From positions 1-64,000 of the forward strand of contig JAEUUC010000010.1 of the NCBI GenBank assembly GCA_016787665.1: 64,000 nucleotides of DNA, in the 5' to 3' direction. The notes under the pieces are model-generated. The model was not told the DNA's origin and did no database searches. It saw only the letters and a list, made by a program, of their open reading frames with translations. The position numbers were made by a program, and so were the translations under genes. Every line of letters begins with the position of its first letter. The first letter of the stretch is position 1. The stretch comes from Cyclobacteriaceae bacterium. Lineage in GTDB: Bacteria; Bacteroidota; Bacteroidia; Cytophagales; Cyclobacteriaceae. Shown here in pieces: positions 5,037 through 24,412 of this stretch.

Positions 5037-5067
5037 ATAAAACCTTAAACACAGAAATTCGCCAATT

Positions 5068-5106
5068 CGTTGTAACGGTGGCTGCCCAATGGCATTAACC
5101 ACAACG
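5068..5106. repeat. imperfect dyad next to lipoprotein gene
   Basis: CGTTGT at the left and ACAACG at the right enclose GGTGGC...TGCC / GGCATTAACC, giving a 39-nt imperfect hairpin with unpaired bases. It lies just upstream of the lipoprotein start. Geometry (short outer arms, interrupted inner arms) recalls integron attC or other cassette junctions, but that is inference. Confidence 0.45.
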
Positions 5107-5433
5107 TTTTGTGTTTATTTAGTTGCGGGAGTAGGAGGGCTTAAAAATGAAGCGCAGCGGAATGTCTGCTCCGAACTGTCCCCCGTGACCGACCTACATT
5201 GTGAAACATAGACTTCAATTTAACACTAAACCCCCGCATTGCATAAACATTTTGTTACCGCCTGTGCCCCTTCCCCCGTGTCGGCTGAAACAAAATTGTC
5301 AAATGTTGTCCACATTCTTTTGTCGTTTGCTTTTAATTTATTGGTCTCAGTCCACCGTCCCCGCGCGTGGCGGCAACTGTGGGAACTTTGTCTGCATACA
5401 CTAAACTACTCACTTGAATTTTACGTGCGTTGG
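5107..5433. other. non-coding spacer in accessory block
   Basis: About 330 nt between two dyads. Short open frames exist on the plus strand, but they have no recognisable start context or protein features. Text such as CCCCGCATTGCATAAAC looks like the tail of a cassette or repeat unit rather than a gene. Confidence 0.4.
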
Positions 5434-5498
5434 CAGCAGCACTCTTGCCTTAGCTTTGGTCGTGCGTTAGAATGTGTGGCTTGGCAAGTGTGCTGCTG
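5434..5498. repeat. long dyad A, 16-bp arms
   Basis: Left arm CAGCAGCACTCTTGCC and right arm GGCAAGTGTGCTGCTG pair at 15 of 16 positions around a 33-nt loop. The loop contains GCTTTGGTCG and ATGTGTGGC. The same loop and inner-arm motifs recur in the dyad at 9417-9476, so the two are homologous elements bracketing the two-gene unit between them. Confidence 0.7.
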
Positions 5499-5536
5499 GT
5501 CGGCATAATATTTTCGGGTAGGTATTCTGTCGTTTA

Positions 5537-7861
5537 TTACGAATTACTAAAATCCGTAATAATATCATATCTGACGTAGAATTCTTTTGTCCCTTCATGA
5601 ATATCAAAATATGAATTTAGTTCAGTAATTATTGGAATAAATATTCTATTCTCAGTAATAATTGTTGTTGTCGGTACGGCTTTTCCCCCAGTTGATTCAT
5701 CTGAGAGTTTTTCCTTCAATTCTATGTCGTAATAGAGCGATAGGTTGTTAGAAGCATGAGTGAAAATATAGACTACTTTGTGCATACTCCAGATTACCTT
5801 AGTCGTATGTGGTTCCAGAAAAAATTCCAATTGACTCTTGAAAAGTTTGTCCGAAAGGCTTAGAAATAAGCTAAAATCATTAAGGTGAGGATATGGCTTG
5901 TCAGTTTTTAGAATTTTTTTATCTGTTTTTGTTTCTCTCCTAATTATTGGCGGCACCGGACCATACTCATCAAATGAAGCCTTGTCAGCTGTATTATCTT
6001 CTATAATACTAGGTATTTCTTGTTCGACAGTTCCTACTTGATTCTTCCTTACAAATTGAGAATGAGTTCTAATTATTGTTGTAGATTTTTTTAGAACTTC
6101 AGGGAAATCAATGTCACCCGAAACGTATTCGGAAAGCAAAGACTCAAGAGCTCCCAGGTCAGAATATTCATACTTATATAGTTCTCGATTCCGCATTAGA
6201 ATTTTATGCAATGCGTCTGCACCTTGCCTTGTTGATGAAGGCACGTAGGGAGCGAATTTTTGATAAAGATGATTTCTTACAAAATCTTTCACGAAGCTTC
6301 CGAATAGCGACCAGTCTGTCGAATAAATTTGAAGAACTTGTTGAACAGCACTTGATTGCCTCGATAGGTACACAATTACAACATTGTCTTTATGCTCAAT
6401 TAAACTTGGAACTTGATGACTGATATCTGCAATGTATACTTTGGAATCAGCAATTAGATAATCTTCATTTAGAATATTCGTAATTCGTAATATTAGTGTC
6501 ACTTCGGAGAACGATAATTCCTTTGTTTCAAAAACTTTTAAAACTCTAGCTTTATCTGGAACCTCCTCTACACCTAACCTCTTAATATATTCTAATTGGA
6601 TTCTTCTTCTTGGATTGTCTTGGCTTAGCAATAATAAATAGGAATTTTCATTGCCAAATTGAAGAATTGTTGATGAATCTCTGCCAGAGTAGTAATATAC
6701 CTTCTTGCCTCCAACGGTTGACGCGATTTTGCTCAAGCTCCATCTTTCATCATTTGGCTGAACAACAATTTTTAGGTTTTTAGCTAATTCAAATTTATTG
6801 TTAGAGGACAAATAGTTTAAGAATCCTGAATTCAAGTCAGCTATGTCTAAATGGGAAATTGACTCAGCTATTTTAGCTTCAATTGAATTAATGATTTGCG
6901 AAACTAATTCTATGCTTTCCCTGCTTAATGCTTCTCTTCCTGCTGTTGGGTGTAAGACGGATAGATTAACCACTCCACCTAAATTGAAAAATCCTGAAAC
7001 TGGAATTGGAGCTAAACCGAAGTAATTTCTAAGTCCGTAAATCCCACCGCCCCCTTGTGAAAGCACAATATCACCAATCATCGTTTGTCCATTTCTAGTG
7101 ATATCCGAGCAATAAACTTTTACGATATTTTGATTTGTATAATTTATTTGTAGAGTGAAGCTTGAGTTGTTTGGTGTAACAATTTTGTGTGATTCGGTCT
7201 TGAAAAGATTCTCAGGGCGAACTTCAAAAATATCCGTGTATTTGTTCTGACTAACAGTCGTACCATTTATTATAACAGGAATATTTAAGTGTTTGACGTA
7301 AGGATTAAGATAGCTTATCGCTCCTTGAGCTGTAAGATTCAGCGCATCATCAAGTTCAGCAATAATTTGTGTACCCGCTTCCCTTTCTTCAACGATTGTC
7401 TTAATATCAATGCACTCCTCTGTTATAGAGAGGGATTCCCTTCTTGCAAAGGTTTCAATAGTTTCATTTCCTTGGGCATAATGGGTAATTACTTTTATTG
7501 ATTTGCAAACACCGAAATTCGCCATCGCACCTATTCCAAATGTTCCAACTACTCCAGCTTTTTGAGCTATTTCGTTATTCTTTCCGCTTGAGCCTGCTTT
7601 CCAGAAGTTATTACTTACAACATCTCTATTCATACCAATTCCATTGTCTTCAATTGTAATGTATTTGGAGTTGATATTTACATTTATCTTTGGCGCAAAT
7701 GAATCTTTGCCATTGAGCTGCATTCTCATTAAGATAGCATCATACCCATTCTGAATATTTTCACGAAGTAAAGCATACGGTGAGTCATAAATATCATTTG
7801 AAAGAATTTCAAGAACCCTCCTAACTTCAATTTGAAACGATAATTTGCTTGTGTTACTCAT
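5537..7861 (-). CDS. HSP90-like GHKL ATPase protein
   Basis: A 774-residue protein with an N-terminal GHKL ATPase fold: N-box E34-N35...N38 (RENIQNGYDA), G1 motif DNGIGM at 72-77, and lid motif GTFGIGAM at 106-113. A region resembling the HSP90 S5-like middle domain follows (PYVKHLNIPVIING around 187, HPTAGREALSRES near 307). The C-terminal half is not recognised and does not match the HtpG dimerisation domain, so this is not ordinary HtpG. The start overlaps the stop of the metallophosphoesterase gene as ATGA. It is strongly AT-rich relative to flanking genes. The pairing suggests an ATP-driven sensor or effector module, possibly anti-phage; the function is not shown by sequence alone. Confidence 0.75.
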   Translation of the reverse strand: MSNTSKLSFQIEVRRVLEILSNDIYDSPYALLRENIQNGYDAILMRMQLNGKDSFAPKINVNINSKYITIEDNGIGMNRDVVSNNFWKAGSSGKNNEIAQKAGVVGTFGIGAMANFGVCKSIKVITHYAQGNETIETFARRESLSITEECIDIKTIVEEREAGTQIIAELDDALNLTAQGAISYLNPYVKHLNIPVIINGTTVSQNKYTDIFEVRPENLFKTESHKIVTPNNSSFTLQINYTNQNIVKVYCSDITRNGQTMIGDIVLSQGGGGIYGLRNYFGLAPIPVSGFFNLGGVVNLSVLHPTAGREALSRESIELVSQIINSIEAKIAESISHLDIADLNSGFLNYLSSNNKFELAKNLKIVVQPNDERWSLSKIASTVGGKKVYYYSGRDSSTILQFGNENSYLLLLSQDNPRRRIQLEYIKRLGVEEVPDKARVLKVFETKELSFSEVTLILRITNILNEDYLIADSKVYIADISHQVPSLIEHKDNVVIVYLSRQSSAVQQVLQIYSTDWSLFGSFVKDFVRNHLYQKFAPYVPSSTRQGADALHKILMRNRELYKYEYSDLGALESLLSEYVSGDIDFPEVLKKSTTIIRTHSQFVRKNQVGTVEQEIPSIIEDNTADKASFDEYGPVPPIIRRETKTDKKILKTDKPYPHLNDFSLFLSLSDKLFKSQLEFFLEPHTTKVIWSMHKVVYIFTHASNNLSLYYDIELKEKLSDESTGGKAVPTTTIITENRIFIPIITELNSYFDIHEGTKEFYVRYDIITDFSNS

Positions 7862-13537: not shown

Positions 13538-15721
13538 TTACCTTACCACCTGTAGGCCTTCGCTGTAGAAATTCGAGAAAGACCGAAGTTGTTCTGGAGT
13601 ACCTTTTAATTGAATTTTCCCATTTTCGAGGATGTATACCCGGTCACACCGCTGCGCAGTAGCCATGCGGTGAGTTACCAATACGGTGATTCGGTCTTGC
13701 TTCGCCTTCTCAAGCAAACGTACCACGAAGGCTTCGGTATTCCGGTCCATGGCGGACATCGACTCATCCAGCAACAGCACCTTCGGTTGACGGAAGAGTG
13801 CCCGTGCCAATGCAACCAACTGCTTTTGGCCGCCCGACAAATTCACTCCCTCTTCTCCAAGTAGTGTAAGATATCCTTGCGGAAAGTCGGCAAAAAAAAT
13901 ATTGAAGCCTGATTGATCCAAAAATTGTGCAGCACGTTGCAATTCAATCACATCATCATTCAGCACAACATTGAAGAGCAAATGCCCATTGAAAATCTTG
14001 GGGTCCTGCGGGATAGCGGAAATATTGGTTCGCAACTCGCGCAAATCCAGATCGGCATATCGGAGGCCATCTATGGAAATACTCCCACCCTCCGGATCAT
14101 AGAATTTTTGAAGTAGTTGAAGTAACGTGCTCTTCCCCCGGCCGCTTTCACCCACCAAGGCAATCATCTCTCCTCGTTTAACTTCAAATGAAACGTCTTG
14201 GAGAATCTGTTTTCGCCCCGGGAATCGAAAGGAAACATTATTGACCGCTAGTGAATCAAAAGATAATTTGTGGTCGATCGCCCGCTCATCTTCTTTATCC
14301 ATCGAAACAAACTCGTACATGCGTTCAAATGCAACCAACGCCTCCTGAATCTGAATATTGGAAACCATCAGGCGATTGACGGCCGGAATGATTCCTCCGG
14401 CAATCCCCAGCAGCGCCACCAACTCACCAATCTGAAGCTGTTTAGAGATAACCAGCCAGGACGACATCCCAAAAACCGTCATCATAAAAATGACACCCAT
14501 GACTTCGGACAGTACCGAAAAACGGATTTGGAGTTTGCCCAAATCCGCCATTCTCGTCTGAAAAAAGCCATAGACTGCAGCATTCAGTCTTTCAAAAAAT
14601 TCCAACTTATTGGCCAACTTGATATCCGCCACGCCTTGTATGGTGTCGATAAAATTACTCTCAGCATAGGCATAACCTGCCATCACTTCCTTTTGTGACC
14701 TTATGACGGGTTGGTTAAACCGGATCAGCAACAAGGCGAACACTGGCAGGCAGCCGAGCATGATCAATCCAATGGCGGTGGAGTACACAAACACGAATAT
14801 CAGCGAGACAATCACCACCAACACGTCAATACTGACGCTGCCAAACAACACTGCCAACACGCTCTGAATTCTGCGTGTATCATTCATGCGGGCAATCAGA
14901 TCGCCTGTTTTACGGGTATCAAAAAAAGATTTGGGCAACCTCAGCAGACTGTTGTAAAAGCTCTGGATGATCCGGTTGTTAAAGTCTACCCCCTGCCTGA
15001 TCATAAACAACCCGCGTAAAAAGCCGACCCCGCTGCGGGCTAACAGAAGCAACGTAACCAGTATGACACTGAGAATTAATTTCTCATAATTCTCATTGGG
15101 CAATATATCATCAATCAGTTTTTGGGAGAAGATGGCCGAGGAAATGCCCAGCATGGCGATAAGCAATCCGAGAACCATCGAAATGGTTAGGATGCTCAGG
15201 TCTTCGCGGACCAGTGAGAAAATCCACTGTCTTTTCTTTGCCTTCTGCAAAGTGACCTTCTCAAATTTCTCATTCGGTACCAGTTTCAAAAGCGCTTTGC
15301 TTTTCCAGATGCCATCCAACTCTTCAGGCGAAAGATCAAGAATGCCCCTTGCCGGATCACCAATCTTCAGCTTAGCCTGTCTGTTGGCGGAAAAGGATTG
15401 CGAAGCATCCGGATAATAAACTACGTAGTGCTGAAGTCGGTTGTCGATCACCACATGCAGGATGGCTGGATCCGATACCTCACTCAGATTATAGACGGTT
15501 TCAGCCTCAAGGCCTTCGGCATCAAAACCCAGCTGTTGTGCTGCTTGCAGAAGGCCCAGTAACGTGGTACCCTGACGGGAAGTGCCGCTAAGTTTACGCA
15601 GTTGCTCGAGGCTGTGATGCCCGCCATGATATTTGATGACCGACAACAGGCAGGCCACACCGCAGTCAGACTGGTCGTGTTGGCGTAGGTGTGTACGCTC
15701 GATTACTCTATTGTCGGGCAT
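13538..15721 (-). CDS. C39 peptidase-containing ABC exporter (leader-processing)
   Basis: A 727-residue exporter of the type that cleaves double-glycine leaders and secretes the mature peptide. N-terminal C39 peptidase: Cys20 in QSDCGVACLL, His98 in LQHYVVYYP, Asp122 in IGDPA. Six membrane segments follow (about 170-450). The nucleotide-binding domain has Walker A GESGRGKST, signature LSGGQKQ and Walker B VLLLDESMSAMD, all intact. It is the last gene of a minus-strand operon headed by a 53-residue precursor with a matching leader, and overlaps the thioredoxin-like gene by 14 nt. No HlyD-type adaptor is encoded nearby. Confidence 0.92.
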   Translation of the reverse strand: MPDNRVIERTHLRQHDQSDCGVACLLSVIKYHGGHHSLEQLRKLSGTSRQGTTLLGLLQAAQQLGFDAEGLEAETVYNLSEVSDPAILHVVIDNRLQHYVVYYPDASQSFSANRQAKLKIGDPARGILDLSPEELDGIWKSKALLKLVPNEKFEKVTLQKAKKRQWIFSLVREDLSILTISMVLGLLIAMLGISSAIFSQKLIDDILPNENYEKLILSVILVTLLLLARSGVGFLRGLFMIRQGVDFNNRIIQSFYNSLLRLPKSFFDTRKTGDLIARMNDTRRIQSVLAVLFGSVSIDVLVVIVSLIFVFVYSTAIGLIMLGCLPVFALLLIRFNQPVIRSQKEVMAGYAYAESNFIDTIQGVADIKLANKLEFFERLNAAVYGFFQTRMADLGKLQIRFSVLSEVMGVIFMMTVFGMSSWLVISKQLQIGELVALLGIAGGIIPAVNRLMVSNIQIQEALVAFERMYEFVSMDKEDERAIDHKLSFDSLAVNNVSFRFPGRKQILQDVSFEVKRGEMIALVGESGRGKSTLLQLLQKFYDPEGGSISIDGLRYADLDLRELRTNISAIPQDPKIFNGHLLFNVVLNDDVIELQRAAQFLDQSGFNIFFADFPQGYLTLLGEEGVNLSGGQKQLVALARALFRQPKVLLLDESMSAMDRNTEAFVVRLLEKAKQDRITVLVTHRMATAQRCDRVYILENGKIQLKGTPEQLRSFSNFYSEGLQVVR

Positions 15722-16217
15722 ACTTCAGAATTGCCTCTACTTTCGTCTCGCCTTTAAACTCCTTGATTAACCTGCCGTTGGTCCCGTAGATAAGTATGGT
15801 AGGGTAGCGCACGGTGCCAAAATTGTCAAACACGTCCTCCGGATTGATCTTGACAAAATTCACATTGCGGTTACCCTCAAAAGGCAGAGCAGATTGTTTT
15901 ATGGCCGGAATCGGCTCGGAGGACAAAAAAACCAACTCAATATCATTAAACGAATTGATCTCTGCATTTATCTGGGAAAGTTCATACTGACAGTGTTCGC
16001 AGGTTGAATTGAAAAGTATTAGAACGACTGGTTTTCCGGTAGGAATAGTAAAACGTCCACCATCCAAAGCAAAAAGACCCGCCTTAATAGGTAAAAACCC
16101 ACTTCTAGCTTGCAATTCCCGTTGCTGCATCGCCCGATCAACAATCAGGTATGTCAAAAACGCCACGATCGCTGCAAAAGTGGCAAGCATAGCTATTAAC
16201 AGCCCCTGTCTATTCAT
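15708..16217 (-). CDS. membrane-anchored thioredoxin-like protein
   Basis: A 169-residue protein with one N-terminal membrane segment (residues 5-26) and a periplasmic thioredoxin-fold domain. The redox motif is Cys73-Glu-His-Cys76 in LFNSTCEHCQYEL, followed by the cis-Pro region RYPTILIY. It resembles TlpA/ResA-type oxidoreductases. In this operon the likely job is handling cysteine oxidation of the exported peptide, which has two cysteines after the leader; this is inference. It sits between a membrane protein (1-nt gap) and the exporter (14-nt overlap). Confidence 0.82.
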   Translation of the reverse strand: MNRQGLLIAMLATFAAIVAFLTYLIVDRAMQQRELQARSGFLPIKAGLFALDGGRFTIPTGKPVVLILFNSTCEHCQYELSQINAEINSFNDIELVFLSSEPIPAIKQSALPFEGNRNVNFVKINPEDVFDNFGTVRYPTILIYGTNGRLIKEFKGETKVEAILKYARQ

Positions 16218-16218
16218 T

Positions 16219-16878
16219 TTAGCTGAAGCTTACCGAAATGAACATGACTAAAACCATCCACAACAAAAGGCCTAAACCATAAGTACTGGCAACAAACACC
16301 AGACTCCCTGTAAAATCCCTTCCTAAAAAACCCTTCAACTGCCAAGCTAAAATGCACCAGTAAGTCACTTCAAACAGATTCAGCATCCGTAAAGGATAGA
16401 CTAGCCAAGGCTCAATCTCGTTCGAATCTATGATACCTATAACAGAAAGCGGTGAAAAATGATAAACATCGGCCAACCCAAAATCGGACCGAAAAAAGCC
16501 GAACCAAAAAATTTTCACAAGAATTGGTAATAGGGCAACAAAATGAGCCAACAGAACAATCTTTAACAAGTCAATTATTCGTCCACCTAATTGGCATACA
16601 AAACAACCAATGTAAAGACATGAAAAAATCAAAAAACATTTGATCAACAGAAAAATTGGACTAAGAAGATAAGAGAGCCATTTCCATTTCTTTCCGTCTT
16701 CCAACATTTTTTCAATTCTATCATGGGATAATTGATCTTGCCAAAACTCGTAGTACAAGGAATCATCAACTAGAAACGAGTCAGCTAACAGCATTAGAAA
16801 AATTTGAAAAGTCACTAATAAGCTTACCAAACCCATCAAGCCGACTTTTTGCTCGTTATGCGTAATGCGCTCAACCAT
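16219..16878 (-). CDS. multi-pass membrane protein of the peptide-export operon (copy 2)
   Basis: A 219-residue protein with about five or six membrane segments. It shares layout and text with the next gene upstream: both have a short N-terminal membrane segment, an acidic loop (DSLYYEFWQDQ here), a central segment pair, and a conserved block of the type PLSVxxxxDxxEI followed by a PLxxLxxxxLF segment. The two look like diverged tandem duplicates with a Yip1-like membrane arrangement. I do not recognise a defined family. Likely roles are immunity to the exported peptide or an export accessory. Confidence 0.68.
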   Translation of the reverse strand: MVERITHNEQKVGLMGLVSLLVTFQIFLMLLADSFLVDDSLYYEFWQDQLSHDRIEKMLEDGKKWKWLSYLLSPIFLLIKCFLIFSCLYIGCFVCQLGGRIIDLLKIVLLAHFVALLPILVKIFWFGFFRSDFGLADVYHFSPLSVIGIIDSNEIEPWLVYPLRMLNLFEVTYWCILAWQLKGFLGRDFTGSLVFVASTYGLGLLLWMVLVMFISVSFS

Positions 16879-16897
16879 TTCATTTTGGCTTAACAGA

Positions 16898-17533
16898 CTA
16901 CATGAAGATATACCATATCCCGAAGAACAAGATGAGAGGAAGGATGTAACAGGTTGTTACAACCTTAATCAGTTCGCCAATGGTTGCCCCCGACAAAAGA
17001 CGAAACGAGGCGATTATTACAATTATTTTTAACAGGTGGAATAAATCAACTGATTGCAGGGCATAAGATAGCGGAAAACCGATTTCCTGATTGTCAACTA
17101 GTGAAAAAACCGAGAGTGGGTTAAGGTTAAAAACTTCAGAACTAACAAAAGACCCCCTTGCCTTAAACCAAAAAAAAATCACGAACTCTTTCACAATCTC
17201 TGAGCATGAGGCAAATGAACAAACATTAAACACAACTCTGGTCGGGAAGCCCAACTGGAACAGTGTCGTTCCTAAGAGGAACAGACCTGAAGTCACTACT
17301 ATTGTGGCGGAAAAAAACAAAACCAAAAGGGAATACTTTACCCTTCTAAAACCTCTAAGGCCCTCGAGGTAGCGATCAAAATCTTGTCCCTTGAATTCTT
17401 GAAATAGCATATCCTCGGTAACAAGCAATTCATGTTTAGCATAAATCGAAATCAGGTAGGCAAGCCCAACTATCAATGCAACAACCCAGGGGTTCGAATT
17501 AAAAACGCCTTTTACCTTTTGCATTTCTCTCAA
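16898..17533 (-). CDS. multi-pass membrane protein of the peptide-export operon (copy 1)
   Basis: A 211-residue, strongly hydrophobic protein with about five membrane segments and the same PLSVFSLVDNQEI block as its neighbour. The start overlaps the end of the upstream carboxypeptidase-like-domain gene by 26-35 nt; an ATG three codons downstream is an alternative start. A/T content is higher than in core genes. Similarity to the following gene suggests duplication. No catalytic motif is seen. As with its partner, immunity or export assistance are the most reasonable guesses. Confidence 0.68.
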   Translation of the reverse strand: MREMQKVKGVFNSNPWVVALIVGLAYLISIYAKHELLVTEDMLFQEFKGQDFDRYLEGLRGFRRVKYSLLVLFFSATIVVTSGLFLLGTTLFQLGFPTRVVFNVCSFASCSEIVKEFVIFFWFKARGSFVSSEVFNLNPLSVFSLVDNQEIGFPLSYALQSVDLFHLLKIIVIIASFRLLSGATIGELIKVVTTCYILPLILFFGIWYIFM

Positions 17534-18794
17534 ACTGATTATCTAACGACTCCTTTTTTTCGAGTGAGAATCTCTGATTTGGGCCTATGGGGTTAAGTGT
17601 AACCATGTTATAAGTCTCCCAAAACTGCTTGTTGTATGGACGAGCCTTTTCGTAAATATCATCATCCGCGAATTCTCTTTCCCTCCTCTTGATTCGATCG
17701 TAATCCGACCTTTTCAGCAATATTTCATTAATCATAATTGATGATTCCTTGAACTGCAACTTTCCTTTAGCGCCAGTAACGCCCGGGATAGGCTCAAAAC
17801 AAGTGATATAAAAAGGGTAGTACTTGGAATTAATCTTATGGTACTCTACAACTATTTTGAACCTTAAGCGATTATCAAAAAAAACAAGTTCCTGATTAGG
17901 AAATGTGAACTTGGGGTTTGCCACCCATGAGTAAGTCATTCGTCTTATGGCTAAGTCTCCTAGCGAAACAAAGATTTCGCCAACAAAGTAGGGACCATTA
18001 CGCTCTTCATCAGTAGAAAATACAATTTTTGCAACTTGGTTTTGGTCCGTCCCCAGAATAGTATCTAATCGCAGGTTATATGTTAAAATAGAGCTTGACC
18101 TAATCAACTTCCCGCTTTGTCGAAGAAAGTCAGATCGATATGTCTTTAGCAAATCATTTTCCGAACCAAGAAAGACTTGCACCAAAGATTTGGTCCATGA
18201 ATACTCAACATAATCATTGCTCTTTCTTATTTGATCAACCCTTACTCTAACGTTCTCATCCTTTCCTGAGTATCCTGGGTCCTGAATGCTTATTGCAGCC
18301 TCTACGAGCCGGGATGATGAGTCTCCATTTTGACTTATCTGCCTGAAAAATCCAGACGAAAAAAAATCATCTGTAGGATAGTTTGATTTCACCTTTTCTA
18401 AGACCCGCTGTATGAATTCATGCAATGAATCCTGTTTTATGGCTTCAACAACCACCTCGTTTAGCATAACAATGTCCGGAATTAAAAAAATTGAATCGGC
18501 CATGTCGCGAGACGCCAAAAACTCACGGATGGGCAAACTAAGGCTCTTGAAGCCAATACAACTAAACACAACATTTCGGTTGGACAATGTGTCCGGTAAA
18601 ATCAAATGAAATTGGCCCGCGTAATTAGTAACCACCCCAATAGATAAATTTTCTATGTGTACGTGAACAAAAGGAACTGTCGAAGAGTCTTGCTTACTAA
18701 ATACCGTACCCCTGAACCCTAAAGTCTGGGCAAAAGAGATTGAAAACGCTGAGACAAACAGCAGAAGCATGAAAAAAACATGTTTCATATTCAT
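17499..18794 (-). CDS. secreted protein with carboxypeptidase-like regulatory domain
   Basis: A 431-residue protein with a signal peptide (MNMKHVFFMLLLFVSAFSISFAQ). A CarboxypepD_reg-like beta-sandwich covers about residues 25-110 (GFRGTVFSKQDSSTVPFVHVHI, split; IGFKSLSLPI). The remaining 300 residues are an uncharacterised region also seen behind this domain in other Bacteroidota proteins, ending in a charged tail (RNAKGKRRF). It is not a TonB receptor: the plug and barrel are missing. Placement directly after the peptide gene, and before the membrane proteins and exporter, suggests it works at the outer membrane in export or surface display of the peptide. That is inference. Confidence 0.72.
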   Translation of the reverse strand: MNMKHVFFMLLLFVSAFSISFAQTLGFRGTVFSKQDSSTVPFVHVHIENLSIGVVTNYAGQFHLILPDTLSNRNVVFSCIGFKSLSLPIREFLASRDMADSIFLIPDIVMLNEVVVEAIKQDSLHEFIQRVLEKVKSNYPTDDFFSSGFFRQISQNGDSSSRLVEAAISIQDPGYSGKDENVRVRVDQIRKSNDYVEYSWTKSLVQVFLGSENDLLKTYRSDFLRQSGKLIRSSSILTYNLRLDTILGTDQNQVAKIVFSTDEERNGPYFVGEIFVSLGDLAIRRMTYSWVANPKFTFPNQELVFFDNRLRFKIVVEYHKINSKYYPFYITCFEPIPGVTGAKGKLQFKESSIMINEILLKRSDYDRIKRREREFADDDIYEKARPYNKQFWETYNMVTLNPIGPNQRFSLEKKESLDNQFERNAKGKRRF

Positions 18795-18802
18795 TAAACT
18801 TA

Positions 18803-18831
18803 AAGAGAAGCCGATTTTCTCGGCTTCTCTT
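18803..18831 (-). terminator. hairpin between precursor gene and downstream operon
   Basis: Perfect 12-bp arms AAGAGAAGCCGA / TCGGCTTCTCTT around a 5-nt loop, 23 nt past the precursor stop and 8 nt before the next start. Only a short T tract (TTTA) follows on the minus strand. It may therefore be a leaky terminator or an mRNA-stabilising stem, which would give more precursor than exporter transcript. Confidence 0.65.
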
Positions 18832-18854
18832 GAGACAGCAAATTTGCAGTTCTA

Positions 18855-19016
18855 CTATTGCTGATTGGTACAATGCCTGCCGTACATCTCCCAAGCAAAA
18901 AGATAGAGTTCATTCGACCCTTGAAAATTGCCACCTGTTAGCACAGCCCACATGTTATCACAGTAGGTGCTGCCCGCTGAAATTACCTCAATTTCCTCAA
19001 CATTCAATTTTTTCAT
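18855..19016 (-). CDS. double-glycine-type leader peptide precursor (bacteriocin- or signal-like)
   Basis: A 53-residue precursor. The leader (residues 1-15, MKKLNVEEIEVISAG) fits the C39 consensus: Leu at -12, Glu at -8, Ile at -7, Ile at -4, Ala-Gly at -2/-1. Cleavage after Gly15 would release a 38-residue peptide with two cysteines (19 and 49), aromatic residues and a GG pair in the middle. I chose the ATG directly before KKLN because the upstream seven-codon extension would break the leader pattern. It is the first gene before the exporter operon on the same strand. Function (antimicrobial, signal, or modified peptide) is not decided by sequence. Confidence 0.78.
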   Translation of the reverse strand: MKKLNVEEIEVISAGSTYCDNMWAVLTGGNFQGSNELYLFAWEMYGRHCTNQQ

Positions 19017-19119
19017 ACTGGTATATTTGATTAGCACCCAGAAACCCGTCTGGTACGGTTGTTTTGCAAAACTTTGGAAGATAAGTTGAAAGAGATGTTA
19101 CTAGGCACAGCACCCCGAA

Positions 19120-19155
19120 AAATAGGGGTACCACACTTCCCGGGAAATAGGGATA
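19120..19155. promoter_or_regulatory. direct repeats in the precursor/regulator divergent region
   Basis: AAATAGGGGTA and AAATAGGGATA occur 25 bp apart, with the palindrome TTCCCGGGAA between them. They lie in the 164-bp region between the divergent peptide and response-regulator genes, so they are plausible binding sites for that LuxR-type regulator. Purely pattern-based. Confidence 0.35.
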
Positions 19156-19180
19156 TTTCGACATAAATCTCGTTGACAGC

Positions 19181-19807
19181 ATGGCGTGGGCAGTTTTGGT
19201 GGTAGATGACCACAGTATGGTGGGGGAATTGATGGCGGCTGCCTTGCAGGATTGGAATCAGATAAAATCGGTTTCCTGTAGTACCTCGGCCGAAGATGCG
19301 CTACATCGGGTGCGCCAGCATCCACCCGATATTGCATTTGTGGACGCCCGTATGCCCGGCACCAGCGGGGTTGAATTGATCAAAAATCTGAAATCGGAAT
19401 ATACCCGAACAAGACTGGTAGGTATGACTAGCTTTGAAGAAGACGAAACGCTGGCCGAAATGCTACAAGCCGGTGTGCACGGCCTGCTGCTCAAACGCAG
19501 TACCAGCCGCCAGGAAATACGACTTTGTCTTGAGCAAGTCATGGCAGGACGAAGTTACTTTTCGGCTCAGGTAACTCAGCGCATCACAGCATCACCTAAA
19601 CTATTACAACCCCCTCCGCACCTATCCAGTCGAGAGCTTCAGATTCTACAGCTCATTTGCCAGGGCTATTCGACCAAACAAATTGCCGACCACGTGCAGT
19701 TGAAGGAAATGACGGTCGATGACTACCGTAAAAAAATGCTATCGAAAACCCACACTAAAAATGCTGCTGAGTTGGTTGACTTTGCTCATCGCAACGGGCT
19801 AGTTTAA
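19181..19807 (+). CDS. LuxR/NarL-type response regulator
   Basis: A 208-residue two-domain regulator. The receiver has Asp9/Asp10, phosphoacceptor Asp55 (AFVDARMP), Thr83 and Lys105. A LuxR-type helix-turn-helix spans about 145-208 (LSSRELQILQLICQGYSTKQIADH). It is divergent from the peptide precursor and convergent with a HisKA_3 histidine kinase, whose stop overlaps its own by 9 nt. The pair probably forms a two-component system controlling the export locus. Start chosen at ATG with the usual short N terminus. Confidence 0.9.
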   Translation: MAWAVLVVDDHSMVGELMAAALQDWNQIKSVSCSTSAEDALHRVRQHPPDIAFVDARMPGTSGVELIKNLKSEYTRTRLVGMTSFEEDETLAEMLQAGVHGLLLKRSTSRQEIRLCLEQVMAGRSYFSAQVTQRITASPKLLQPPPHLSSRELQILQLICQGYSTKQIADHVQLKEMTVDDYRKKMLSKTHTKNAAELVDFAHRNGLV

Positions 19808-20629
19808 AAAACGGTTGGGCAGGCGTACAACTACGTGAAGTCCGAGGGTGATAGTAACAAAATCAATTTCGGCCCCAATGCGGCTTGCCCTCTCCTGCAA
19901 GCTCTGCATGCCCAATCCGAAGCCTCGGCCCCGTGCCATACCCTGTCCATTATCTTCCATATGGATCTTGAGAAGCTCACGACTCCAACTGAGTGTGCAT
20001 CGAAGTTGAAAGCCCATTGAACTCTTCAGAAAATTATGACAAACTTCGTGCATGATGTAATACAAGTCGTGTTTTACAGTAGCGGGGATATCAAATTCAA
20101 ACGAATCGTCTACACTTTTATATGTGATCTTCAGGTGATGCATCGCGCTCAGCGAATCCGTAAGCGTCTTCGCTAGTACGGAGAATGGGAGCTTTTCAAA
20201 CCGCGGCTGCGTCAACCCATTAATCAAGAACCGAAGCGTGCCTACAATATCATCCAGTTCTTGCCTGAGTTGATCCACCTGCTTTTCAACACGTTCTGGA
20301 GAATTAGAATACAGAATTTGCTCCAACTTAAACCGGGCCGCAACAATACGTTGGACCGTATCATCATGTAGTTCGTGTGCAATTCGTTTTTGCTCATGGG
20401 CAATTATGAGCTCATTTCGAGCCATTTCATCGTTCAATTCAAGCTTTAATCGGCTGATCTGCTCTCGCAGCCCTTCCAAAGTAAATTGTAAACTGCGTTT
20501 TTCGCTTTTCGCTTCGCGAATGGCCAATTGATATCTTCTTTTTAGCCAAAATTTGGTAATCCAAAACACAAGCACGGACGAAATCACTACGGCCCCAAAA
20601 ATAACCGTCATGAATTTCCAATCTATCAT
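19799..20629 (-). CDS. HisKA_3 sensor histidine kinase
   Basis: A 276-residue kinase with one N-terminal membrane segment (about 8-29), a coiled-coil linker, the HisKA_3 dimerisation motif with phospho-His near 88 (AHELHDDTVQRI), and an HATPase_c domain (DNGQGM, GFGLGMQSLQERA). There is no periplasmic sensor domain, so it must sense through the membrane helix, the linker or a partner. The ATG overlaps the stop of the upstream GDPD gene (TGATG); an adjacent GTG one codon earlier is possible. The cognate regulator is most likely the convergent LuxR-type gene. Confidence 0.88.
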   Translation of the reverse strand: MIDWKFMTVIFGAVVISSVLVFWITKFWLKRRYQLAIREAKSEKRSLQFTLEGLREQISRLKLELNDEMARNELIIAHEQKRIAHELHDDTVQRIVAARFKLEQILYSNSPERVEKQVDQLRQELDDIVGTLRFLINGLTQPRFEKLPFSVLAKTLTDSLSAMHHLKITYKSVDDSFEFDIPATVKHDLYYIMHEVCHNFLKSSMGFQLRCTLSWSRELLKIHMEDNGQGMARGRGFGLGMQSLQERASRIGAEIDFVTITLGLHVVVRLPNRFLN

Positions 20630-21537
20630 CACCTTCCCTCCCGCTTGATGCTCAGCGTCATCTTGTATTTGGCCGCACGGTCCGGGTAGTCGGTGATGAA
20701 CCCATCCACGCCCATGCCTTTGATGGCCAGCATGTCTTTCTCTTCATTAACGGTCCACGGAATAACCCGCATCTTCAGTTTCTTCAGGTACTTCACTTTC
20801 TCGCGATCAAGCAACTTGAAATCGGGGCTATAAATGGCCGGCTGAAAGCCCAGCTCGGCCAGGTTTTCGTCAATGGATTTTTTGTTTTCCACCAGTGCGG
20901 CCAGCCGCACCTCCGGGTATTTCTCGTGCCAGTACTTCAGCACGCGGAAATCAAACGACTGAATCACCACACGTTCCCAGGGAAGGTACTGGTCAATCAA
21001 CTGGTACACCACATCGGAAAACTCGGCCGGTACTGGATGAAATTTGTTGTCCCCTGCCGGCAGACTTTTGATTTCGATGTTGTAATCCACCTCGTAGCGG
21101 GAGAAGCTTTTGATATGATCTTCCACGGCCGCAATCACATCGCGCAGTAGCGGCTTGTGCACCGCCATCTTTTCCTGTTCGGGAAACCGCGCATTCCCCT
21201 TACTGCCGCAGTCAAACTGCTTCACTTCATCATACGTCATCTGGTAGATGTTGTACGCCATCTCCGTCTTAGCCTCAATCGGCTGGCCATCGGGCTGCGT
21301 GCAAATGGCGGCCGACATCCACGGCTCGTGCGACACGATCACCTTTTTGTCCTTCGTGATCGCCAGATCCAACTCCAGCGTGGTGACTCCGTAGTCCAGG
21401 GCCGCAAGAAAAGCCGGGATGGTGTTCTCCGGTTTTAAACCGCGGGCGCCCCGGTGGCCCTGCACATCAAACTTGGGGTGGTGAATCTGCGCGAAAGACG
21501 CTACCGATGTTGCCATGAGCAGAATAACAAGCTTCAT
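20629..21537 (-). CDS. glycerophosphodiester phosphodiesterase
   Basis: A 302-residue exported enzyme that would hydrolyse glycerophosphodiesters to glycerol-3-phosphate and an alcohol. The TIM-barrel GDPD signature HRGARGLKPENTIPAF lies just after the signal peptide (MKLVILLMATSVASFAQ); ELDLAITKDKKVIVSHEP provides metal and catalytic residues, and the C terminus has the usual GVDGFITDYPD. A start 33 nt upstream is possible but gives a less typical signal. It is coupled to the histidine kinase gene. Why a phosphodiesterase and a sensor kinase should be linked is unclear. Confidence 0.9.
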   Translation of the reverse strand: MKLVILLMATSVASFAQIHHPKFDVQGHRGARGLKPENTIPAFLAALDYGVTTLELDLAITKDKKVIVSHEPWMSAAICTQPDGQPIEAKTEMAYNIYQMTYDEVKQFDCGSKGNARFPEQEKMAVHKPLLRDVIAAVEDHIKSFSRYEVDYNIEIKSLPAGDNKFHPVPAEFSDVVYQLIDQYLPWERVVIQSFDFRVLKYWHEKYPEVRLAALVENKKSIDENLAELGFQPAIYSPDFKLLDREKVKYLKKLKMRVIPWTVNEEKDMLAIKGMGVDGFITDYPDRAAKYKMTLSIKREGR

Positions 21538-21610
21538 GACGCAAGATAGAGAGTTCCTCTTTTGTTTCACGCAGAATCGCCAAGCGGCTCTGCGCCAGGT
21601 GATGCTGCGG

Positions 21611-24412
21611 TTAATTGCGGATCATCATCCGCATGCCACCGCCACCGGGCCTGCGCATGCCCATGGGGTTGAGCTGTTTGTTCAGCGCGTAGGTAAAACT
21701 CAGCATGAAGTATCGCCCCAAATTGTTGGTCACCTGCTGCTGGTAGTAGTTGGCGGTGGCCGTTTGGGTTACACTCTGACTTTGATCCAGCGCATTTACC
21801 ACACCCAACTTCAACTCACCCGTTTTGTTTTTTAAGATAAACCGCGAGATCGAGATATCCAGCAACGGAATCGTTTCTTCAAAATCCGTGGTCTGGCTGT
21901 TGTAGATGAAGTAGTTGAAATTGGTATTGAATGCATAGTTCTTCAGGAAATTCAGGTTGAACTCTGCGCCATACGTTTTATTGAAGAACACCTGGTCCTG
22001 CTGATTATCAAATTCATACATCGTTTGTTGATGACTGAGGTTGGCGCTCAGGTCAAGCGTTACAATCTCTTTGAAGGTGAAGTTGTAGCGCACGGTACCC
22101 CCGGCCGTTTGCTGGCGAATGATGTTTTCCTGGCCGTTCAGCAAGTTAACGCTGCGGGTACGGTTCGCGGTTGGGCCGATGTTAACGCGGCTCTTCAGCT
22201 TTTTGATCGGGAAACCAAAGTTCACATTGCCTGTCAGCACCAGGGCATAATCGGTGTTTACCGGGCGGGTGAGGCTTTGCAAGGTTTGTGGATCTACATT
22301 TTGAGAGTTCGTGATGGCATTCTTGTTATAGGTGGCCGTGAAGAACGCAAACAGGTTCACAAACTTGCCCGGATCGAAGGTGGTGAAGTTGGCTGTCAGG
22401 CGGTGCTGGTAAGCGGGTGCCAGTTCGGGGTTACCTATGTATAAGTTCAGCGGATCGCTGTTGTCAATCACCGGCTGCAACTGCCGGATGGTCGGTTCCT
22501 GCATGGAGGTTTCATAGTCGAGGCGCAGATGCTTGAAACTGCTGAAGTCGTAATTGAAACGGGCCGATGGCAGGAAGTTCTCGAATGTACGGTCGATGGT
22601 CACGTTTTGAATTTCGAGATCGCCCGTGAGGTTGGTAACCTGGTAACTGCCACCAACGGTAAGGTTGTACTTCTGCCGGTTGAGGCGGAAATTGAGGCCG
22701 GGCCGGTTGAACAAAAAGTTGCTGGTGTAAATGTTGCTTAACTGCGGATTGAACGTGAGGCTGCCGCCTTGCTCATCAAATACCTGCCGATCGAAGTCGT
22801 TGATGTTTGAGCGAAAGGTGTAGTTGGCCTCCAGGTACTTGCGGTTGCCCAGCGGCTCGGTATAGGCTACCGTGGCCGCGTAGGTATAGTTGGTGTTCTC
22901 CTGCGTGTTGGTTTGCAGAATGTCCACTTGTTCGGGTTGGTTACCGAAAAACTCGTTGGTGGATTGCTGGTTGCCATCACTGTCCGTGAGCCCGAGGCCA
23001 AACGTGAGGTTGGTGGTGAGAAAGCGACCCTTCTTCTCAAACCGGTGGCGCCACAGCAGATTGGTGTTCAGTGTGGTTGCGGCCGTTTGCTGAAACGTGG
23101 CGCGCTGACTCGTGTTTTGCAGTGAGCCATCGGGCAAGCGCGACTCACTGTCGCTGGCAAGTGTCTGCTCCGATTCATTGTAGGAAAGATTGGCGGTGAG
23201 CTTCAGCGAGTTGGATGAATCCAACTTGTGATCGAGCACGAGGTTAGCCCGGTGGTTATCGTTGAGGTTGAGCTGGCGGGTTTGCTGATTGAACGTGTAG
23301 TTTCCGGCCGGAAAATAATTCACCCGGGTGAGGTCGGTGTTCAGGCTTTGATCCACGTGGTTGTAGAAATAACTGGTGCTGACTTGCGTCTTGGGGTTAA
23401 CGTCTTTGTTGAAATTAATGCCGCCCGCATAGTTCGTGACGATGCCATTTTGGCGGCCGCCAAAATTCAAGGGTACCCCCGAATTATCGCCACCCAGGTT
23501 AACCGTGAAGCGCCCACCACCTCCACCACCCATGAGTTGCTGCGAGCCACCAGAAAAATTCATGTAGTCATCAACGGAAAAGCCCTGCTCGTTCACGTTG
23601 TTGCCCATGCCGAGAAACGAGAGTTGCTGGCCCTTCGAAAACTTGTTGATGCTGGCACGGGCCTGAAACCGGTCTTCCGTTCCGGCTCCGGCCATAAGCG
23701 TTCCAAACGCTCCTTTCCGCTTCTCTTCCTTCAATTCGAGGTTGATTGTCTTTTCGCGTTGTCCGTCTTCAATGCCGGTGAACACGGCCTGATCGGATTT
23801 CTTATCGTACACCTGCACCTTATCCACCGCATCGGCCGGCAGGTTGCGCGTAGCCAGTTTGGGATCGCGGCCAAAAAATTCGCGGCCATCTACCATCACG
23901 CGTTGTACCTGTTCGCCTTGTGCTTTAATGCTTCCATCGGTCTCCACTTCTACTCCGGGTAACTTCTTCAGCAGATCTTCAACGGTGGCGTTGGTTTTCA
24001 CCTGGAAGGACCCCGCATTAAACTCGATGGTATCCTTTTTCACGGTCACGGGATTTTTCTCACCCTGCACGATCAACTCTGCCAACTCCTGCGTCAAGGG
24101 CTGCATGAGCAATATGCCCAAATCAAGTTCCGGCTCACCGAGCGCTTCTACGGTTTGAAACAACGGCTTATACCCCACAAACGTAATCTTCAGCCAATAA
24201 CGCCCGCGGCTTATTCCCTTCACCTCAAAATATCCCTTCGAATTGCTCACCCCGAAGTTGACCAGCGATGAATCGGCCGAAGACAGCAGCATGACCGTGG
24301 CCGAGGGCAGCGCACTTTTTGCAGAGTCCAGTACCTGGCCACGCAGGTTGGTCTTTTGCGCCACGGCCGCACTGGTAATCAAGCATAGCACGGCTAGTAA
24401 TGAATGTCTCAT
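21611..24412 (-). CDS. outer membrane beta-barrel protein with carboxypeptidase-like domain (TonB receptor-related)
   Basis: A 933-residue outer membrane protein. Signal peptide 1-18; CarboxypepD_reg-like domain about 22-105; plug-like region 110-230 (TVEDLLKKLPGVEVETDG, VMVDGREFFGRDP); then a large barrel ending in aromatic strands. This arrangement matches the outer membrane barrel family related to TonB-dependent receptors. Glycine-rich tracts occur in the loops and at the C terminus (GMRRPGGGGMRMM). It follows a GLPGLI-family gene 31 nt upstream, a common Bacteroidota pair. Substrate unknown. A divergent two-component system upstream could control it. Confidence 0.85.
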   Translation of the reverse strand: MRHSLLAVLCLITSAAVAQKTNLRGQVLDSAKSALPSATVMLLSSADSSLVNFGVSNSKGYFEVKGISRGRYWLKITFVGYKPLFQTVEALGEPELDLGILLMQPLTQELAELIVQGEKNPVTVKKDTIEFNAGSFQVKTNATVEDLLKKLPGVEVETDGSIKAQGEQVQRVMVDGREFFGRDPKLATRNLPADAVDKVQVYDKKSDQAVFTGIEDGQREKTINLELKEEKRKGAFGTLMAGAGTEDRFQARASINKFSKGQQLSFLGMGNNVNEQGFSVDDYMNFSGGSQQLMGGGGGGRFTVNLGGDNSGVPLNFGGRQNGIVTNYAGGINFNKDVNPKTQVSTSYFYNHVDQSLNTDLTRVNYFPAGNYTFNQQTRQLNLNDNHRANLVLDHKLDSSNSLKLTANLSYNESEQTLASDSESRLPDGSLQNTSQRATFQQTAATTLNTNLLWRHRFEKKGRFLTTNLTFGLGLTDSDGNQQSTNEFFGNQPEQVDILQTNTQENTNYTYAATVAYTEPLGNRKYLEANYTFRSNINDFDRQVFDEQGGSLTFNPQLSNIYTSNFLFNRPGLNFRLNRQKYNLTVGGSYQVTNLTGDLEIQNVTIDRTFENFLPSARFNYDFSSFKHLRLDYETSMQEPTIRQLQPVIDNSDPLNLYIGNPELAPAYQHRLTANFTTFDPGKFVNLFAFFTATYNKNAITNSQNVDPQTLQSLTRPVNTDYALVLTGNVNFGFPIKKLKSRVNIGPTANRTRSVNLLNGQENIIRQQTAGGTVRYNFTFKEIVTLDLSANLSHQQTMYEFDNQQDQVFFNKTYGAEFNLNFLKNYAFNTNFNYFIYNSQTTDFEETIPLLDISISRFILKNKTGELKLGVVNALDQSQSVTQTATANYYQQQVTNNLGRYFMLSFTYALNKQLNPMGMRRPGGGGMRMMIRN

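Follow-up and report, generated by a model that had tools for sequence, protein, structure and literature searches.

A predicted bacteroidetocin-like bacteriocin locus with an exchangeable cargo cassette in a member of the Cyclobacteriaceae

The 64,000-nucleotide window considered here (positions 1 to 64,000 of contig JAEUUC010000010.1, assembly GCA_016787665.1, from a Cyclobacteriaceae bacterium) contains, in the interval 13538-20632, a minus-strand run of six genes headed by a small peptide precursor, together with a two-component regulatory pair (Table 1). After the precursor, the run encodes a secreted protein with a CarboxypepD_reg-like domain (carb), two membrane proteins (tmA and tmB), a membrane-anchored thioredoxin-like thiol-disulfide oxidoreductase (trx) and a C39 peptidase/ATP-binding cassette (ABC) exporter (C39); adjacent genes overlap or are separated by 2-61 bases. 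This same-strand arrangement had been described in an earlier reading of the DNA (hereafter the original prediction), and the open reading frames (ORFs) were found at the coordinates given there. Among the six genes of the run only carb and C39 pass the Pfam cut-offs, and none has a Pfam or NCBIfam match to a modification enzyme; for tmA, the start is most likely the ATG at 17524 and not the TTG at 17533. The whole is probably a bacteroidetocin-type (class IIf-like) bacteriocin locus with an interchangeable cargo cassette, its function being predicted.

Table 1. Features of the locus, in window coordinates
Feature	Position	Strand	Evidence
Precursor, 53 amino acids (aa)	18855..19016	-	ORF call, family alignments, dN/dS
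Precursor leader, 15 aa	18972-19016	-	
Precursor mature part, 38 aa, 2 Cys	18858-18971	-	
carb, secreted CarboxypepD_reg-like protein	17499..18794	-	PF13715 E=2.9e-11
tmA, membrane protein	16898..17524	-	profile match, tree
tmB, membrane protein, resident-lineage transmembrane component of exporter	16219..16878	-	searches, tree
trx, membrane-anchored thioredoxin-like thiol-disulfide oxidoreductase, CEHC	15708..16217	-	ResA-like weak match, motif
C39 peptidase/ABC exporter	13538..15721	-	PF03412, PF00664, PF00005
5'-leader RNA element	19038..19063	-	conserved copies, paired helices
Two tandem dyads, CCCCGAAAAATAGGGG and CCCGGGAAATAGGG, between precursor and response-regulator gene	19113..19152	.	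read by eye
NarL/LuxR-type response regulator, divergent from precursor	19181..19807	+	PF00072, PF00196
HisKA_3 histidine kinase	19799..20632	-	PF07730
Cargo interval without nucleotide counterpart in the closest relative (G036, locus L074)	16011..19111	.	DNA comparison

The precursor consists of the leader MKKLNVEEIEVISAG followed by the mature part STYCDNMWAVLTGGNFQGSNELYLFAWEMYGRHCTNQQ. The residues expected of a double-glycine-type leader are present, as originally claimed (L-12, E-8, I-7, I-4 and AG at -2/-1), and relatives of the peptide exist: a homologue in a genome of the same family (L086; 40% identity, E=8e-9) lies directly upstream of a carb gene and a C39 exporter. A peptide family could be assembled by reading the ORFs that surround more than 50 related exporters and by scanning GTDB genomes with a DNA pattern; it is characterized by the leader MEKLxxDQMENLVGG and the core YC-x8-GGxFQG...C. 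At least 11 Cyclobacteriaceae relatives, from at least eight named genera, display this core, and divergent forms are also found; members occur in Cognataquiflexum nitidum, Arthrospiribacter ruber, Belliella calami, Nitritalea halalkaliphila, Algoriphagus mannitolivorans (three copies), A. marinus, Indibacter alkaliphilus, Mongoliitalea lutea and Rhodonellum psychrophilum. The cleavage site, AG in the window, is GG in nearly all relatives. Both cysteines of the precursor, Cys19 and Cys49, belong to the mature part and are invariant in an alignment of 17 sequences. The original prediction had proposed frame conservation in related genomes and the balance of synonymous and non-synonymous changes as checks on the gene; relatives are present in many genera, and in close pairs of the family the ratio of non-synonymous to synonymous rates (dN/dS) is about 0.06-0.25, indicating purifying selection. 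Because homologues occupy the same gene position and show this synonymous bias, the 53-aa frame is, on sequence evidence, a real gene. The peptide family is most likely previously undescribed and, with its secreted partner, constitutes the new part of the locus. Two divergent members were also seen in a genome of another family (G816; L167, 8383-8886), within which they were found in that genome alone.

The exporter is intact in its key residues. C39, the sole Peptidase_C39 gene in the 3.74-Mb genome, carries the catalytic C20, H98 and D122, whose integrity had been noted previously, and also the ATPase motifs GESGRGKS (Walker A), LSGGQ (signature) and LLLDE. The match suspected between the two mature cysteines and the thioredoxin-like neighbour is supported by the CEHC motif of trx, which fits disulfide formation; likewise, the kinship proposed for the two membrane proteins was recovered both by pairwise search (E=5.7e-6) and by a profile grown from tmB, which finds tmA at 1e-33. 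In a tree of these transmembrane (TM) proteins tmB groups with loci of the same genus (L074-L077; 98/94), whereas tmA leans towards the TM proteins of other carb-type loci (86/85), with long branches and uncertain support.

The TM-trx-C39 unit recurs with varied cargos and can be regarded as a chassis. Gly-rich class II-like peptides are one type of cargo, often with an ABC transporter in the place of the secreted partner; others are two-Cys peptides with secreted partners and, as named by eye, sets bearing glycosyltransferase-like or LanC-like genes. Exporters of the same family lie beside UGT-like glycosyltransferase genes in four loci (L149, L154, L155 and L156) and beside a 595-aa LanC-like gene in L083, and the respective cargos are possibly glycosylated or lanthionine-modified. 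Two genera share an almost identical pair of GG precursors rich in Gly (L076 7776-8241 and L126 5788-6247), which looks like a two-peptide (class IIb-like) bacteriocin on this chassis, and six differing small GG precursors stand in a row ahead of one TM-trx-C39 unit in L238 (6403-7806). Furthermore, a related TM protein, which belongs to no Pfam family, is present in almost every sampled genome of the genus, encoded by one conserved gene (L091 6522-7178; G000:C3:95584-96168); the exporter TM protein may be derived from a protein of this type.

Nearly every member of the peptide family is followed by the gene of a secreted protein, either carb or a lipocalin-like barrel. The carb form is found in the window and in L085, L086, L150 and L175; its CarboxypepD_reg-like domain spans residues 28-116 and precedes about 310 C-terminal residues. 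The lipocalin-like form occupies the same position in L135, L146/L182, L151/L199, L159/L200, L183, L188, L189, L194, L196, L197 and L201; it is a secreted protein of 140 aa with a PF13648 (Lipocalin_4) domain, and its AlphaFold2 (AF2) model (pLDDT 90) resembles barrels of the lipocalin/fatty-acid-binding-protein type. Distances between mature peptides are correlated with those between the barrels (Mantel r=0.63, p=0.0005, 12 pairs, species relatedness partly controlled). A. mannitolivorans possesses three precursor-barrel pairs, the third of which is closest to that of A. marinus and not to the other pairs of its own genome. Several loci (L159/L200, L183, L194 and L201) have a surplus second barrel gene without a peptide of its own, as immunity genes would be expected to show. 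Other precursors with two Cys (L125, L127 and L142) are likewise followed by proteins of the carb type, and four-Cys peptides (L128, L133 and L245) by a shorter version of them. A profile search of the PDB with carb gave a confident match only to the regulatory domain at the N-terminus of SusC-type receptors; a LolA-like half-barrel in its C-terminal part, suspected from the sequence pattern, was not confirmed, and carb has no match in viral contigs. We propose that carb is equivalent to the lipocalin-like protein placed alike in sister loci and, by analogy, that it would be a peptide-specific partner, most likely an immunity protein or else a periplasmic carrier. In one locus (L153, oriented, 5049-6242) an IS3-like transposase pair separates the exporter from orphan lipocalin-like genes, and the precursor of this locus is shortened.

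Comparison with the closest relative (genome G036, locus L074) revealed that the cargo is replaced as a block: the window is 95% identical over 13551-16010 and 93% identical over 19112-21655, and the 3.1 kb in between have no counterpart, the cargo being wholly different. In their place G036 encodes another two-Cys precursor, with leader MKSLGVEKMATTIGG and mature part WELVCDIDWGFMLWGSDWFYGYFKVSNCRFTD, as well as a protein of 247 aa whose N-terminus is signal-like. One breakpoint lies just ahead of the CEHC codons of trx, and the second falls on the border of the dyad element; flanks of 93-95% identity around a replaced cargo document a cassette exchange. Since tmB groups with the same genus and tmA leans to carb-type loci, the sequences suggest that precursor, carb and tmA were loaded onto a resident tmB-trx-C39 unit. 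As a separate observation, the C39 gene is split in G036 (L074 5866-8045) and fragmented in genome G023 (L081 7761-8080), suggesting either decay of the exporter or assembly error.

The response regulator/kinase pair and the promoter elements belong to the locus. A HisKA_3/NarL pair divergent to the precursor is present in the window, in L074-L077 and in L124-L126; in the kinase, a single hydrophobic segment lies at the N-terminus. A histidine kinase was also considered as a strict marker of such loci and discarded, since it is not exclusive to them. Two dyads of the pattern CCCC-N6-GGGG stand in tandem in the gap between regulator and precursor and are also found ahead of further precursors in L075, L076, L077, L124, L125 and L126. 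The strict pattern yields 13 matches at 11 distinct places in 1.7 Mb of related locus sequence, in loci of bacteroidetocin-like type, and these lie ahead of precursors wherever the gene was read; the copies in the window are a degenerate version, and L124 and L126 have further copies downstream of C39. The tandem dyads are proposed as the putative binding site of the NarL-type regulator. A second element, closer to the precursor, reads AACAA-CCG-TA-CCAGA-CGG-GTT-TCTGG and can form two interleaved helices. It is present as a single copy in the genome of the window; in the genus it occurs ahead of many precursors in the forms AACAACCGnnCCAGACGGGTTyCTGG and AACTGCAGnnGGAGCAGGGTTT. Both helices pair in 10 of 10 hand-aligned copies, with compensatory changes in both, and they are candidates for a pseudoknot-like or mutually exclusive arrangement. 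Rfam returned nothing above threshold for 18800-19250. Loci with this element include those of the window, L074, L075, L076, L077, L080, L081, L208 and L209; in genomes G013 and G007 it also precedes genes for other secreted proteins.

Taken together, these features outline a probable course of events. The HisKA_3/NarL pair would act via the tandem dyads to activate the promoter of the precursor; the C39 exporter would cleave the 15-aa leader after AG and carry the 38-aa peptide over the inner membrane, assisted by the TM protein(s), and the CEHC thioredoxin would form the Cys19-Cys49 disulfide in the periplasm. The released peptide would then act against competing bacteria, probably other Bacteroidota, with carb as its specific secreted partner, most likely for immunity and alternatively as periplasmic carrier. 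The precursor-carb-tmA cassette would sit on the tmB-trx-C39 chassis, and relatives would swap it by recombination in the flanks. Several points weigh against this reconstruction. The locus encodes no route of exit across the outer membrane, and the divergent copies in G816 have no TM, trx, C39 or partner gene in the 18 kb read around them. The Mantel correlation leaves part of the species relatedness in, and homologues of carb are numerous away from exporters, so the carb family is not immunity-specific. For the C-terminal 310 or so residues of carb no relative was recognised, and their single-sequence AF2 model (pLDDT 32) is unusable. Finally, bacteroidetocins are without an immunity gene, so that cognate immunity or periplasmic carriage is a best guess for the partner, made by analogy.

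The same facts on bacteroidetocins, which inhibit their own producers (PMC6671954), lend themselves to another explanation, in which carb or the barrel gives no self-protection but specifically holds the hydrophobic oxidised peptide, as its carrier in the periplasm or as a helper in export over the outer membrane. The partner is secreted, its barrel form has a predicted ligand-binding fold, and a helper of this kind would agree with the missing outer-membrane export gene; however, the surplus partner genes without a peptide suit immunity better, and where the chassis carries Gly-rich cargos, ABC transporters often take the place of the partner. We regard this role as somewhat unlikely, yet as the strongest of the competing explanations. 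A signalling role for the peptide, which would then be no toxin but an extracellular pheromone detected by the neighbouring histidine kinase, appears rather improbable: the adjacent divergent pair and the tandem dyads ahead of precursors would agree with it, but the kinase, with its single hydrophobic segment, has no recognised sensor domain, most loci of the family (L085, L086, L135, L146, L150, L151 and L159) are without the pair, and unrelated Gly-rich class II-like peptides stand under the same promoter element. As for the 53-aa frame being a chance ORF beside genes that serve another substrate, its small size, the AG in place of GG, the lack of Pfam or NCBIfam matches and the search of sampled same-genus genomes, which gave no convincing homologue, could all be cited in its favour; the conservation of the family at the same gene position in other genera, the strong synonymous bias and the leader element just upstream make it extremely improbable, and on homologues and dN/dS it was rejected.

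With the preferred reading of a bacteriocin locus with exchangeable cargo, a broader proposal can be advanced tentatively, with slightly less than even confidence: secreted lipocalin-like and CarboxypepD_reg-like proteins may serve specifically as immunity (or carrier) proteins for a family of peptide bacteriocins with a disulfide bond in Bacteroidota and be interchangeable in that role, the toxin-partner cassettes being exchanged on a fixed TM-thioredoxin-C39 chassis. If true, bacteroidetocin-class systems would thereby have their first immunity type. The pairing of the peptide with a covarying secreted partner at nearly every locus read makes immunity or periplasmic carriage testable; the cassette swap points to one export chassis in environmental Bacteroidota that is loaded with changing, putatively antibacterial peptides. 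Many unannotated precursors could be found by means of the chassis genes together with the dyad and leader elements.

Among known systems, class IIa (pediocin-like) bacteriocins share the double-glycine-type leader, the C39 exporter and two cysteines; differently from them, the mature peptide has no YGNGVxC motif, the leader is 15 aa long, the host is Gram-negative, trx and TM proteins are present and no class IIa immunity protein was recognised in the locus. Class II microcins of the ColV type are likewise exported from Gram-negative producers by a C39-type exporter, but the present locus has its own thiol oxidoreductase and TM protein, and no gene for a membrane-fusion protein, a ColV-type trait, is found among those at 13538-20632. 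The two alternative partners belong to the same sequence families as the Lipocalin_4 (PF13648) and CarboxypepD_reg-like (PF13715) proteins of Bacteroidota; here they are linked to a bacteriocin precursor, a role unnamed in the papers searched, and the literature search retrieved no paper in which a bacteriocin has a lipocalin or carboxypeptidase-regulatory protein as its partner.

The closest resemblance is to the bacteroidetocins (class IIf). Although the original prediction did not recognise the gene set as a named system, the same ancillary set has been published for them (Coyne et al. 2019, PMC6671954): besides a Cys-containing peptide with a GG leader of 15 aa, their loci encode a TM protein, a thiol oxidoreductase and a C39 ABC exporter, so that this machinery is already known. 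Bacteroidetocin activity is attenuated when the TM or the oxidoreductase gene is deleted, and the loci yielded no immunity gene (PMC6671954); the target is BamA (PMC8546649). Differences are evident: the present peptide has two cysteines in 38 aa, against four in 42-48 aa, which also counts against the proposed reading, and by eye it shows no likeness to the four-Cys KFWG peptides of L128, L133, L245 and L246. The YC...GGxFQG motif, the secreted partner, the second TM gene, the two-component pair, the peptide-first order and the cassette exchange are further distinctions. On the other side, the locus combines a GG-type leader of 15 aa, within the 15-16 aa expected of the class, and at least two mature cysteines with an adjacent C39 gene and thiol oxidoreductase, in a Bacteroidota host, and here too the precursor is often unannotated. 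In L246 the genes are arranged as in bacteroidetocin loci, with a four-Cys KFWG peptide between TM and thiol oxidoreductase and with C39 last, and the TM profile of the present loci matches the TM proteins of L246 (E=2e-26) and L245 (8e-27). This match to loci in bacteroidetocin order suggests that, judging from its gene set and with no claim to membership of the bacteroidetocin family, the present locus would work like a bacteroidetocin system.

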